Source: Curvibacter lanceolatus ATCC 14669 (lineage in GTDB: Bacteria; Pseudomonadota; Gammaproteobacteria; Burkholderiales; Burkholderiaceae_C). From it: a DNA stretch of 58,078 nucleotides. The translations under genes were made by a program, and so were the position numbers. Location: NCBI RefSeq assembly GCF_000381265.1, contig NZ_KB906284.1, positions 1 to 58,078 on the forward strand, written 5' to 3'. The notes beneath the pieces were generated by a model, which worked only from the letters and a program-made list of their open reading frames with translations, had not been told where the DNA came from and searched no databases. Shown one piece after another: positions 21,709 to 26,375 of the stretch. How positions within the stretch are numbered: the stretch's first letter is position 1; each line of letters begins with the position of its first letter.

Positions 21709-22851
21709 ATGAGCACCTCCGCCGCCCCCCACCCAGCCGCCAGCCGCTTCGCGCCGCTGCAAAACGACACTTTTCTGCGCGCCTGCTGGCGCCAGGCCAC
21801 CGACCACACCCCGCTGTGGCTGATGCGCCAGGCCGGCCGCTACTTGCCCGAGTACTGCGCCACCCGGGCGCGGGCCGGCAGCTTCATGGGCCTGGCCACC
21901 AACACCGATTTCGCCACCGAGGTCACGCTGCAGCCGCTGGAGCGCTATGCGCTGGACGCCGCCATTTTGTTCTCCGACATCCTGACCGTGCCCGATGCCA
22001 TGGGCCTGGGCCTGTCCTTCGCCCAGGGCGAGGGCCCGCGCTTTGCCACCCCCGTGCGTGACGAGGCCGCGGTGGCGGCCCTGCAGGTGCCCGACATGGA
22101 CAAGCTGCGCTACGTGTTCGACGCCGTCACCAGCATCCGCCACGCCCTGAAGGGCCGGGTGCCACTGATCGGCTTTTCGGGCAGCCCCTGGACGCTGGCC
22201 TGCTACATGGTCGAAGGCAAGGGCAGCGATGACTACCGCCTGGTCAAGACCATGCTGTACAGCCGCCCCGACCTGATGCACCGCATGCTCGAGGTCAACG
22301 CCGATGCCGTGGCCACCTACCTGAACGCCCAGATCGAGGCCGGCGCCCAGGCGGTGATGATTTTTGACAGCTGGGGTGGCGTGCTGGCCGATGGCGCCTT
22401 CCAGCAGTTCAGCCTGGCCTACACGGCCCGCGTGCTGCAGCAGCTCAAGCGCGAACATGAGGGCGTGGCCATTCCGCGCATCGTGTTCACCAAGGGCGGC
22501 GGCCAGTGGCTGGATGCCATGTCGGCCCTGGACTGCGAGGTGCTGGGCCTGGACTGGACGGTTAACCTGGGCCAGGCGCGTGCCCGCGTGGGCGGTGCCG
22601 TGGGTGGCCCGGGCAAGGCCCTGCAGGGCAACATCGACCCCAACGTGCTGTTTGCCCCGCCGCAGCAGATTGCGCAAGAGGTAACCCGCGTGCTCGACAG
22701 CTTCGGCACCCCGCACCTGGACCCGCTGACCACCGGCCCCACCCACATCTTCAACCTGGGCCATGGCATCAGCCAGTACACCCCGCCCGAACACGTGAGC
22801 GCACTGGTCGAAGCCGTGCACACCCACTCACGGCGCCAGCGTGGGCTCTGA
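21709..22851 (+). CDS. hemE: Uroporphyrinogen decarboxylase
   Basis: This 380-residue cytosolic enzyme removes four carboxyls from uroporphyrinogen III to give coproporphyrinogen III in heme synthesis. Hallmarks are [12 protein letters not shown] (about 38-49), the [12 protein letters not shown] loop with the catalytic Asp, [19 protein letters not shown] and [12 protein letters not shown]. Length fits the family, slightly extended at the N-terminus. The ATG at 21709 is preceded by CCAGGG. A strong terminator follows. hemE and priA flank the DnaA-box array described below. Confidence 0.96.
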
Positions 22852-22870: not shown

Positions 22871-22895
22871 AACGCCCGATCCGGGCGTTTTTTTT
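22871..22895 (+). terminator. Rho-independent terminator of hemE
   Basis: AACGCCCG (22871-22878) pairs with CGGGCGTT (22882-22889) across ATC and runs into eight T (22888-22895). It is 20 bases after the hemE stop and isolates hemE from the DnaA-box array. Confidence 0.93.
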
Positions 22896-22935
22896 CGCCT
22901 CCTCATGCGGTGCTGGAACAAGTCAAAACGGCCGC

Positions 22936-23290
22936 GTCAAGCCTCTTATGCACAAATCATCTGATGCACCGCAACACATGGGCAGCGTGGCCGCCGATAC
23001 CGCTGGAGTCTGCAAGTCATTGATTCATATAGAGTTTATGGACTGCCGATTTTGCAGGCAACCTAAGCAAAGCCTTGTGGCACAAGGGTTTTGACGGTTC
23101 ACGAACGGGATATCAACAAACTTATCCACAGGTTCTGTGAGTTTTTGTTAAACCACCCATCTGACAAGCACTTAGCGCCGTATTTTCAAGCCCGGCCTCA
23201 GCAACGCCGGCGATCGCCGAGCGAACATCTGTCTGCCAACCTCCAGGCCCCACAACACCTGCCCAGACAAGCCCCCTGAAGAACCGCAAA
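22936..23290 (+). repeat. DnaA-box unit 1
   Basis: G-box TTATGCACA at 22946-22954; AT-rich stretch about 23022-23056 (GATTCATAT, then TGCCGATTTTG); imperfect palindrome at 23069-23091 (AAAGCCTTGTG, G, CACAAGGGTTT, one mismatch); TATCAACAAAC leading into C-box TTATCCACA at 23122-23130; CAAGCACTTAGCGC at 23165-23178. Confidence 0.85.
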
Positions 23291-23300
23291 AGACCGTGCC

Positions 23301-23640
23301 GTCAAGCACTTATGCACAAAATATCTGATGCATCGCAACACGATGCGCCCCCTGACACAGCCCTGCGCGAATTACATAAGTCGTTGATTCATATGGGCTT
23401 TATATTTTGCCGATTTTGTGGGCAGCGTAAGCAAACCCTTGTGCCACAAGGGTTTGCGGCGCTTGAGGGGCGGATATCAACAAAGTTATCCACAACTTCT
23501 GTGTACACCTGAAAAACCCCTTTTGGCATCAAGCACTTAGCGCGGCTTTCTCGGCCTGCGATGAACTGAACGGAGCGAATTGACCGACAGTCGGAAAGTC
23601 TCGCGCTCGCTTCCACAGGGCCCACCCGTCGGCCGCCCTT
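23301..23640 (+). repeat. DnaA-box unit 2 (best preserved)
   Basis: G-box TTATGCACA at 23310-23318; AT-rich stretch about 23385-23420 with the same GATTCATAT and TGCCGATTTTG; a perfect 13-bp-arm palindrome at 23431-23457 (arm GCAAACCCTTGTG, centre C at 23444); TATCAACAAAG leading into C-box TTATCCACA at 23486-23494; CAAGCACTTAGCGC at 23530-23543. Box and palindrome spacings equal those of unit 1 exactly. Confidence 0.88.
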
Positions 23641-23654
23641 GACACAGGGCATGC

Positions 23655-23990
23655 TCCGAGACTTGTGCACAGCAGCAAGCCACCCCCAGGCTTGGCTTGA
23701 AGAGGGTGTCTTTTCACAATTCACGTTTTCATGCATTTCCAAGCCTTTGATTTCATTGGACTTTTTAAACTGCCAAATAAACAGGCAAGTCGTTGAAAGC
23801 CTTGTGGGACAAGGCTTTGACGTGGCTGGCGACAGGCTATCCCCAAAGTTATCCACAGAAAACCGGTGCTCTTCTGAAAAATGCAAGCAAATCAAGCACT
23901 TGCGGACAAGTCGTGAGACCCAGGCTGATGCGAACAAGTCTGTGGACAGTTTGTGCAGCCTTGGGGACAAGTCTTGTTGGCACGAAAGTG
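23655..23990 (+). repeat. DnaA-box unit 3 (diverged)
   Basis: Degenerate G-box TTGTGCACA at 23663-23671; AT-rich stretch about 23725-23785 (TTTAAACTGCCAAATAAAC inside); palindrome at 23796-23818 with arms AAAGCCTTGT and ACAAGGCTTT around GGG; C-box TTATCCACA at 23849-23857; CAAGCACTT at 23893-23901. The palindrome arms differ from unit 2 at matching positions on both sides. Confidence 0.78.
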
Positions 23991-24000
23991 CGTTCGCTGG

Positions 24001-24200
24001 TCGAAGTTATGCACAAAACTGGGGCACCTGCTCGGCCCTGAAAAACACCCCTTCTGGGCCGCTTGAAAAAATGGCTAAGTCCTTGTCCGCATTCAATTTG
24101 CGAGTGGCCATGGCGGCAGGGGCAGCCGCTCGCGCGAGCGGCCCAGGCCAAGCCCAGTGGCCCTGCGCGAGCATCTGTCAACAAACTTATCCACAGTTGG
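24001..24200 (+). repeat. DnaA-box unit 4 (truncated, abuts priA)
   Basis: G-box TTATGCACA at 24007-24015; a different perfect palindrome of 18 bases at 24125-24142 (arms GCCGCTCGC and GCGAGCGGC) replaces the one seen in units 1-3; TGTCAACAAAC leads into C-box TTATCCACA at 24187-24195. The CAAGCACTT element is absent, and priA starts 69 bases after the C-box. Confidence 0.75.
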
Positions 24201-24263: not shown

Positions 24264-26375
24264 ATGACCCACCGGATTGCCGTCGTGGTCCAGACGCCGG
24301 CCCACAGCGGCCTCTCAGGGCCCCTCACCTACCTGAGCCCGGAGCCCGTCGCCCCGGGCACCCTGGTGCGCGTGCCCCTGGGCAAGCGCGAGACCCTGGG
24401 GGTGGTCTGGCCGGTGCGTGAAGCCGAGCTGGACAGCGCCGGGGTGGCCGAACGCCAGATCGCCGGCGTGCTGGGCGGCCTGCCCCCCCTGGGCCAGGCC
24501 TGGATGCGGCTGGTGAGCTTTTCGGCCCGGTACTACCAGCGCTCGCTCGGCGAAGTGGCGCTGGCCGCCCTGCCCCCTCAATTGCGTGAGCTGGGTCCGG
24601 AGCAGTTGGCGCGCCGGCTCAAGCGCCAACCGCAGGCCACCGACGGTGCCGACGCCCCAGCCAGTGCGGTGGCGCTGCCTGAACTGACGGCCGAGCAAGT
24701 GGAGGTGACCCGGGCCATCGAAGAGGGCAGCGGCCCCTTCCTGCTGTTTGGCGCCACCGGCAGCGGCAAGACCGAGGTCTACCTGCGCAGCGTGCAGGCC
24801 CTGCTGGAACGCGACCCCACGGCCCAGGCCCTGGTGATGGTGCCCGAGATCAACCTGACGCCGCAGCTGGAAGAGCGCTTCCAGGCCCGCTTTGCGCCAC
24901 GCTGGGGCGAGCAGGCGGTAGTCTCGATGCACAGCGGCATGACCAACCCGCAGCGCCTGAAAAGCTGGCTGGCCGCGCATGGCGGCGCGGCGCGCATCGT
25001 GCTGGGCACGCGCATGGCCATCTTCGCCTCGCTGCCGGGCCTGCGCCTGATCATCGTGGACGAGGAGCACGACCCCAGCTACAAGCAGCAGGAGGGGGCC
25101 CGCTACTCGGCGCGCGACCTGGCGGTGTACCGCGCCCAGCAAGAGGGTGCCAAGGTGCTGCTGGGCTCGGCCACGCCCTCACTCGAGAGCTGGCACCACA
25201 GCCGCCCGGCCGCCGAAGGCGGGCGCTACCAGCGCCTGCTGATGCCCACGCGGGTGGGTGCGGCCGCCGCGGCCGGCCTGCCCCGGGTGCGCCGGGTGGA
25301 CATGAACCGCCAGCCCCGGGGCAGCGTGTTCTCGGCCCCGCTGAGTGCCGCCCTGCGCGAGCGGGTGGCCCGCGGCGAGCAGGTGATGATCTTCCTGAAC
25401 CGGCGCGGCTACTCGCCCGTGCTGCACTGCCGCGACTGCGGCTGGAAGAGCGAATGCCCGCACTGCAGCGCGTTTCGCGTCTTCCACAAGATCGACCGCA
25501 CCCTGCGCTGCCACCACTGCGGCTTCACCCAGCCCGTGCCACGTGCCTGCCCCGAATGCGGCAACCTGGACATCTCACCCCTGGGCCGGGGCACCGAGCA
25601 GCTCGAAGAACAGTTGGCCGAATTGTTCGAAGGCACGCTGCGGCCCGACGGCCAGCCGGTGCGCATCGCCCGCATCGATGCCGACAGCACCCGGGCCAAA
25701 GGCGCCCTGGAGTCCCAGCTGGCCCAGGTGCACACCGGCGAGGTCGACGTGCTGGTGGGCACGCAGATGATTGCCAAGGGGCACGACTTCCGCCGCGTCA
25801 CCCTGGTGGCGGCCATCAACCCCGACGGGGCCCTGTTCTCCAGCGACTTCCGGGCGCCCGAGCGCCTGTTTGCCCTGCTGATGCAGGCCGGCGGGCGGGC
25901 CGGACGCGACGCCGCCTTCGTGAGCGCACAAAACAGCGAAGGCGAGATGTGGGTGCAGACCTTCCACCCCGACCACCCGCTGTTCGAAGCCCTGAAGCGG
26001 CACGACTACCCGGCCTTTGCCGCGCAACAACTGCGCGAGCGTGAGCAGGCCGGCATGCCGCCCTTCTCGTTCCAGGCCCTGGTGCGCGCCGAGGCCCGCA
26101 GCCAGGACGTGGCCCAGGCCTTTCTGAATGCCGCCAGCGCCACAGGTGAGGCCCTGCCCGGGGCCGAGCAGGTGTTCCGCTTTCCGGCCGTGCCCATGAC
26201 GGTGCAGCGTGTGGCCAACATCGAGCGGGCCCAGATGCTCATCGAGTCGGATTCGCGTGCCGCGCTGCAGCGCTTTCTGGCCGCCTGGCAGGGCGTGCTG
26301 CACGCCACCCGCGCCCTGCCCGAGCACAAGGGCCTGATCCGCTGGGCCATCGATGTCGACCCGCTCATGATCTGA
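24264..26375 (+). CDS. priA: Primosomal protein N' (replication restart helicase PriA)
   Basis: This 703-residue DEAH-type 3'-to-5' helicase reloads the replisome at stalled forks. The N-terminal 3'-OH-binding region comes first (IAVVVQTPAHSGLSGPLTYL), then Walker A GATGSGKTEV (about 163-171), DEEHDPSYKQ (Walker B), and eight zinc-binding cysteines (about 390-435: CRDCGWKSECPHC, CHHCGFT, CPECGN). The helicase C domain has VLVGTQMIAKGHDF and AGGRAGR. I chose the ATG at 24264 because the upstream frame to 24063 lies in the DnaA-box array and is unlike PriA. It directly follows the array, so DnaA could influence its expression. Confidence 0.95.
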   Translation: MTHRIAVVVQTPAHSGLSGPLTYLSPEPVAPGTLVRVPLGKRETLGVVWPVREAELDSAGVAERQIAGVLGGLPPLGQAWMRLVSFSARYYQRSLGEVALAALPPQLRELGPEQLARRLKRQPQATDGADAPASAVALPELTAEQVEVTRAIEEGSGPFLLFGATGSGKTEVYLRSVQALLERDPTAQALVMVPEINLTPQLEERFQARFAPRWGEQAVVSMHSGMTNPQRLKSWLAAHGGAARIVLGTRMAIFASLPGLRLIIVDEEHDPSYKQQEGARYSARDLAVYRAQQEGAKVLLGSATPSLESWHHSRPAAEGGRYQRLLMPTRVGAAAAAGLPRVRRVDMNRQPRGSVFSAPLSAALRERVARGEQVMIFLNRRGYSPVLHCRDCGWKSECPHCSAFRVFHKIDRTLRCHHCGFTQPVPRACPECGNLDISPLGRGTEQLEEQLAELFEGTLRPDGQPVRIARIDADSTRAKGALESQLAQVHTGEVDVLVGTQMIAKGHDFRRVTLVAAINPDGALFSSDFRAPERLFALLMQAGGRAGRDAAFVSAQNSEGEMWVQTFHPDHPLFEALKRHDYPAFAAQQLREREQAGMPPFSFQALVRAEARSQDVAQAFLNAASATGEALPGAEQVFRFPAVPMTVQRVANIERAQMLIESDSRAALQRFLAAWQGVLHATRALPEHKGLIRWAIDVDPLMI

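Follow-up and report, generated by a model that had tools for sequence, protein, structure and literature searches.

The gap between hemE and priA in Curvibacter lanceolatus contains a regular series of DnaA boxes, which raises the question of what kind of element these boxes form and whether its design is known elsewhere. In the window (the whole stretch of DNA that was analysed, 58,078 nucleotides), the upstream neighbour is hemE (uroporphyrinogen decarboxylase; 21709-22851, + strand; Pfam PF01208, E 2.1e-129), followed by a GC hairpin and T-run at about 22876-22896, read by eye. The downstream neighbour, priA (primosome helicase; 24264-26375, + strand), is identified by its Pfam PriA domains, with the start codon read from the sequence. 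Seven exact copies of TTATNCACA, all on the + strand, begin at 22946, 23122, 23310, 23486, 23849, 24007 and 24187, and an eighth box on the same strand, TTGTGCACA at 23663, carries one mismatch; the 58-kb window contains no further exact TTATNCACA. A recount reproduces the A-to-B distances (176, 176, 186 and 180 bases) and the unit steps (364, 353 and 344 bases) of the initial annotation, which regarded this order as beyond chance. The genome-wide counts bear this out: 7 of the 34 exact boxes in the 6.83-Mb genome (22 for the reversed-pattern control) fall in the array, and same-strand pairs of exact boxes 159-189 bp apart occur within this genome only in the array, with four matches against none for the control.

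A comparison of the units reveals a component that the initial annotation overlooked, in that a perfect IHF consensus, YAANNNNTTGATW, is located between box A (TTATGCACA) and box B (TTATCCACA) in units 1, 2 and 3. The consensus is given as TAAnnnnTTGATW and WATCAAnnnnTTR (reverse complement YAAnnnnTTGATW) in the available part of PMC10380432. The order within each complete unit is box A, IHF consensus, low-affinity box, strong box B and decayed inverted box. In unit 1, the exact box A TTATGCACA (22946-22954, +) lies 67 bp before the IHF consensus CAAGTCATTGATT (23013-23025, +), which in turn lies 109 bp before the exact box B TTATCCACA (23122-23130, +). The low-affinity box ATATCAACA, with two mismatches, is found at -12 relative to B (23110-23118, +), and the decayed inverted box, which reads TGTGAGTTT on the + strand, is found at +14 (23136-23144, -); the boxes at -12, B and +14 occupy the positions of DARS boxes III, II and I, respectively. 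Unit 2 repeats the distances of 67 and 109 bp, with an exact box A TTATGCACA (23310-23318, +), a perfect IHF consensus TAAGTCGTTGATT (23377-23389, +), a low-affinity box ATATCAACA (23474-23482, +), an exact box B TTATCCACA (23486-23494, +) and a decayed inverted box that reads TGTGTACAC on the + strand (23500-23508, -). In unit 3, the one-mismatch box A TTGTGCACA (23663-23671, +) is 77 bp from the perfect IHF consensus CAAGCCTTTGATT (23740-23752, +), which again precedes the exact box B TTATCCACA (23849-23857, +) by 109 bp, and the low-affinity box is CTATCCCCA (23837-23845, +). Unit 4 retains exact boxes A TTATGCACA (24007-24015, +) and B TTATCCACA (24187-24195, +; 68 bp before the priA start), and its IHF site TAAGTCCTTGTCC (24076-24088, +), located by eye at the conserved place (69 and 111 bp), is decayed. 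Thus, box B is perfect in all four units, the -12 box has two to three mismatches, and the inverted box has two to three mismatches in units 1 and 2 and leaves no trace in units 3 and 4.

The sequence model R1, which covers the part of the element from the IHF site to the inverted box, assigns 61-79 bits to units 1-3 and 17.5 bits, in the core part only, to unit 4, in which the exact DnaA-IHF-DnaA scan detects no module. R1 was built from alignment A1, whose 60 rows were chosen from 77 listed and contain only modules with IHF-to-B distances of 108-112 bp; units 1 and 2, but not unit 3 or the copy on contig C2, were among the training sequences. The spacer of unit 2 between the IHF site and box B contains a perfect 13-bp inverted repeat (23431-23457), found in the inverted-repeat listing. 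This repeat, of the form CCTTG..CAAGG, is common in the family rows of A1, and none was seen by eye in the other rows; judged by eye, it does not fit the Fis consensus and was rejected as a Fis site.

The initial annotation described tandem units of approximately 350 bp. Four units are indeed present, but not as a near-identical repeat: their pairwise identity is 41-62%, and the array is absent from the TRF tandem-repeat output. The units are thus old and diverged, and it is the layout that is conserved. A comparison with the genome of a sister species (G194) supports this view, in that 131/131 motif positions are identical, against 1142/1281 (89%) of the other positions (Fisher p 1.4e-6), where the decayed box I and the unit-4 IHF site are not counted as motif. 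The array has no match in Rfam, a PLSDB search gave no match, and an RNA element and a plasmid were dropped as candidates. From its sequence, the array appears to comprise four copies of an old predicted DnaA- and IHF-binding element, of which one has decayed. The genome encodes DnaA, Hda and IHF alpha (above the cut-off), IHF beta falls slightly short (118.2 bits against a cut-off of 119.95), and a Fis-like protein is under its cut-off (72.3 against 99 bits).

The distances within the element are constrained. After removal of modules in which a further exact box follows the counted one by 12 bp, 98 exact modules with a complete B box remain, all with an IHF-to-B distance of 108-112 bp. The A-to-IHF distance in these modules is 65-70 bp in 25, 76-80 bp in 72 and 90 bp in one, and the two main classes differ by one helical turn, a difference that a bent, looped complex would accommodate. 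A scan that permitted 30-120 bp for A-to-IHF and 50-150 bp for IHF-to-B yields no A-to-IHF distance of 71-75 or 81-89 bp, and one stray at 30 bp. Many loci were fetched with patterns that permit 53-83 bp (A-to-IHF) and 92-122 bp (IHF-to-B), so most of the empty ranges were open to occupation. The priA loci were selected without regard to spacing; their 23 exact spacings have Rayleigh values at 10.5 bp of 0.80 for A-to-IHF and 0.89 for IHF-to-B, and the latter distance forms one cluster. A division of IHF-to-B into two classes (97-100 and 108-112 bp) was considered and rejected, since the values of 97-100 bp correspond to the -12 box wherever checked, except in E. coli datA. Six of the 104 modules have an IHF-to-B distance below 105 bp: in five, the -12 box had been counted although an exact B follows it by 12 bp, and the remaining one is E. 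coli datA. At 55-56 bp from the first IHF consensus, a second one, which is not part of R1, is exact in 4/46 family modules and present with at most one mismatch in 21/46.

Conservation between hemE and priA in relatives, which had been proposed as a check, is found. The bare box-pair pattern occurs in 154/299 family genomes, and the exact DnaA-IHF-DnaA pattern occurs in 70/369 class genomes and 80/300 order genomes (both sets include some family members), with no match of the reversed controls. In tblastn searches with the window PriA, PriA is found beside the element in 22/30 family loci (8/30 are not beside priA) and, outside the family, in 12/27 class loci and 19/24 order loci; the order search also held three family loci, all with PriA. 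This neighbour analysis was capped at 30 loci for each genome search, and more genomes matched. A mismatch-tolerant scan detects the module in 41 of 78 priA upstream regions of named genomes, against 0/2340 shuffles (two of the 80 regions were left out as too short). R1 at E <= 0.01 matches 49/80 priA loci of named genomes, on the same strand as priA, and a match ends no more than 1 kb ahead of the start of the priA match in 49/49 and within 300 bp of it in 42/49. Eleven of these 49 loci are R1 training sequences, and two (L065 and L075) are partial matches of about 18 bits. The loci under G handles and the named loci may include one species twice.

An Acidovorax locus (L031) contains four R1 matches, and the four-unit array is therefore not unique to the genus Curvibacter; a genome of the same genus (G268) has three modules. 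R1 at E <= 0.01 detects no element upstream of priA in the loci examined from Pseudomonas, Vibrio, Nitrosomonas, Gallionella and Azonexus. Elements are present elsewhere in two Pseudomonas genomes, one Nitrosomonas genome and one Azonexus genome, and the stretches around them contain no PriA, HemE or DnaA match. In three genomes from another family of the class (f68; L183, L184 and L185), a DnaA-IHF-DnaA module lies away from priA, and it adjoins aroE in L183 and L185. The orientation of the boxes and priA was assigned by hand in 12 family genomes (G217, G262, G289, G079, G270, G128, G080, G283, G190, G272, G254 and G121), and in 11 of these, all except G121, both face the end of the chromosome where dnaA lies.

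The initial annotation stated that the array matches no described arrangement known to it, and this part is not supported: the spacing of the boxes and the presence of an IHF site correspond to E. coli DARS2 and partly to datA. The same features support its comparison of the array, as a DnaA-box cluster outside oriC, with datA and DARS. In both DARS1 and DARS2, the boxes are located at offsets 0, +14 and +26, which on the other strand is the layout of the element, with boxes at -12 and 0 and an inverted box at +14. A box at -12 with at most two mismatches is present in 94/104 exact modules (E. coli datA included). An inverted box with at most one mismatch, sought from +9 to +19 in the 104 modules, occurs at +14 in 35 and once each at +12 and +15; by group, it is present in 19/25 class, 14/27 order and 2/46 family modules, with none at four control offsets. 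The three-box core of DARS2 is thus present in class relatives. The array is not peculiar to one lineage, and its arrangement is a known one.

R1 was also applied to 222 kb of E. coli stretches, in which four regulatory loci were included on purpose. DARS1 receives the top score (31.8 bits), followed by DARS2 (25.0 bits), datA (partial match, 22.8 bits) and a second DARS2 stretch (22.8 bits); the next best are the region upstream of nrdA (16.1 bits) and oriC (15.3-15.4 bits). The IHF-box 3 part of datA scores 9.3 bits, and the region upstream of E. coli priA at most 4.8 bits. An earlier nhmmer run gave 25.1 bits for DARS1, 15.6 for datA, 13.2 for DARS2 and 7.9 for the best negative, with datA above DARS2 in that run. 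The nrdA match (L260:44617-44723) is the best in the E. coli background and lies just upstream of the gene; the available part of PMC8682772 reports DnaA boxes in the nrdAB promoter.

DARS2 has the three-box core at the same offsets (III at -12, II, and I inverted at +14), and R1 aligns with it end to end, with the IHF site on IBS2. As in units 1-3, where a perfect consensus is located 109 bp from the core, DARS2 has an IHF consensus on the same strand (its second, with one mismatch), but at 99 bp from box II against 108-112 bp in the element; the IHF-to-box II distance is therefore one helical turn shorter than IHF-to-B. According to the accessible portion of PMC4245941, the gap between IBS1 and IBS2 is 3 bp, which agrees with the IHF placement chosen here, and effects of 5- and 10-bp shifts of the IHF site are reported. 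DARS2 differs in that it lies between rppH and mutH, has no A box, as judged by eye, at the place of A in the array, and is described as having Fis sites (FBS2-3) there instead. The array, in turn, is present in tandem copies, and box I is decayed in the family of the window; with two to three mismatches or no trace in the window, the head-to-head pair of DARS is doubtful there. DARS1 shares the core offsets (0, 14 and 26), but is located between bioD and uvrB and has no IHF consensus at one mismatch or fewer.

datA resembles the other half of the unit, in that two high-affinity boxes in the same direction flank one IHF site. In the array, such a pair surrounds the IHF site with exact boxes in units 1 and 2 and with one mismatch in box A of unit 3. 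In the E. coli datA locus (L171), a box at 2745, the IHF site at 2810 and a box at 2907, all on the + strand, are separated by 65 and 97 bp, in agreement with the arrangement box-65-IHF-97-box in one direction given in the part of PMC5742627 that is available. The distance of 65 bp compares with 67 or 77 bp in the array and fits within one turn. However, the distance of 97 bp compares with 109 bp in the array, where only the weak -12 box is located at 97 bp; datA box 3 thus occupies the low-affinity place, and datA has no box at the place of B. Additionally, its inverted neighbour is at +12 rather than +14, and it is a single copy between glyVXY and queG. datA has an essential low-affinity box 7, to which the conserved low-affinity box of the element at -12 of B may or may not correspond. 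datA is located 10.1% of the genome from oriC, near the typical element-dnaA distance in the family. oriC likewise combines DnaA boxes and IHF, but with a different box layout.

On account of its layout, fixed spacing, conservation and match in E. coli, the array is probably a tandem DnaA-IHF array that controls the nucleotide state of DnaA in the manner of DARS or datA. DnaA would occupy the strong boxes A and B plus the weaker box beside B, and IHF, at sites called here by consensus, would bend the DNA sharply between them. The bend would bring two DnaA clusters together on a fixed face of the helix, and the resulting complex would alter the nucleotide bound by DnaA and thereby set the cellular level of initiation-competent ATP-DnaA.

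The direction of this control can be stated only more tentatively. DARS2 stimulates ADP release from DnaA, and datA promotes ATP hydrolysis by DnaA in an IHF-dependent manner (DDAH). The three-box core argues for a DARS2-like reactivation, in which ADP is exchanged for ATP; this is a plausible assignment, though held at somewhat less than even confidence. Inactivation of the datA kind, or titration, finds support in the A-IHF-B half and in the decay, within the family, of the inverted box I, which is needed for the head-to-head pair of DARS; such inactivation is possible but rather unlikely. A pure datA was dropped once the boxes at -12 and +14 matched the DARS core and R1 ranked DARS1 and DARS2 above datA. 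A more speculative and distinctly unlikely proposal is that the element represents an ancestral composite switch of DnaA, in which the A-IHF-B arm is of the datA type, the III-II-I arm is the DARS core, and IHF bending selects between them. E. coli would then have split the two functions, with datA keeping box-IHF-box and DARS1 and DARS2 keeping the core; betaproteobacteria and many gammaproteobacteria would keep the joint form at priA, and the family of the window would be shifting from a reactivator to an inactivator, losing box I while multiplying the copies.

DnaA tuning outside the enterics is poorly known, and related elements before priA in many beta- and gammaproteobacteria may offer a direct handle on replication timing. 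The constant spacing of the DnaA-IHF element and its constant gene address, priA, make such tuning testable, and they offer a way to ask whether activating and inactivating elements share one original design. Among the matches listed from the literature, whose sources were available in part, no element similar to datA or DARS is described at priA. The conservation of DARS2 is given as covering E. coli-related species, described as beta- or gammaproteobacterial, in the available part of PMC5742627, and as gammaproteobacterial in that of PMC4245941.

The address itself suggests another function, namely that DnaA and IHF on the array set the cell-cycle expression of priA, the array being a DnaA-controlled promoter region. 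The recurrent position upstream of priA on the same strand, described above, would fit this, as would the distance of 95-150 bp between box B of the best module and the priA match start in 16 of the 18 loci L031-L048. However, the unit nearest to priA is the one with the decayed IHF site and the low R1 score, which speaks against priA control as the main role; the last unit of G194 likewise has no module, and in one locus (L033) a second unit follows priA. The same genome (contigs C2 and C5) and Pseudomonas also contain such elements away from priA. In E. coli, none of DARS1, DARS2 and datA adjoins priA, and no element lies upstream of that gene. Control of priA is therefore improbable as the main explanation.

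Equally improbable is a DnaA sponge, whose many strong boxes would mainly titrate DnaA near the origin without nucleotide chemistry. The concentration of the exact boxes of the genome in the array, the variable copy number (three modules in G268, four in Acidovorax L031) and the proximity to the origin in relatives would agree with titration: the unit is located 3.3-18.4% of the genome from dnaA in 18/18 usable family genomes. Three of the 21 family genomes (G000, G260 and G280), with dnaA and the unit on different contigs, were left out. In contrast, the conserved IHF site and the fixed spacing are not needed by a sponge, and among 24 order and class genomes the module is 1.2-10.6% of the genome from dnaA in 16 but 22-44% in eight. 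Nine of 33 genomes were left out of the latter set, with dnaA and the module on different contigs (G952, G688, G890 and G729), a module not beside priA (G718, G953 and G728) or several modules (G545 and G538), and the presence of PriA beside the module was checked in those genomes with a locus. For multi-contig genomes, the distance is that along the shared contig divided by the rounded genome size; the value for G726 is an upper bound set by hand.

The clustered DnaA boxes, the IHF site and a local drop in GC content are also features that a main or secondary replication origin would have. In the relatives G217 and G262 (20 samples of 20 kb each), which were tested in place of the window genome itself, GC skew flips sign at dnaA and not at the unit, which is 527 kb (G217) and 500 kb (G262) away. 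In 14 of the usable family genomes, 4-17% of the genome separates the unit from dnaA, and in the same-genus genome G268 the two are 430 kb apart on one contig; in the window genome, the array (C32) and dnaA (C3) are on separate, unlinked contigs. Together with the low R1 score of E. coli oriC, the results from the relatives make an origin very improbable. A chance or functionless relic repeat, which the low identity of the units and the lost IHF consensus of unit 4 might suggest, is scarcely credible against the invariant motif bases in the sister species and the conservation across order and class with zero control matches.

Apart from the array, R1 detects two elements in the same genome. 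The first, at C2:428708-428847 (L240:2509-2648; 67.4 bits), comprises the IHF site and the core and lies upstream of an exbB-like gene and lpxK; the second, at C5:125757-125865 (L241:2458-2566; 38.0 bits), comprises the core part only and is located between a molybdopterin oxidoreductase-like gene and trhP. In the Azonexus genome, the element lies between xseA and an exbB-like gene, and in an Alcaligenaceae genome, it adjoins xseA, with lpxK near, which suggests a possible second conserved betaproteobacterial address at xseA / exbB-lpxK (L249, L253 and L240). Several elements happen to lie near repair or replication genes, namely uvrB, mutH, priA, xseA, rmuC and recR (L173, L172, L249, L253, L243 and L203). 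Additionally, pairs of TTATCCACA are present in three genomes of one genus (L007, L008 and L009), in L007 beside a ParA-like gene, and these pairs perhaps mark the origin of a secondary replicon.
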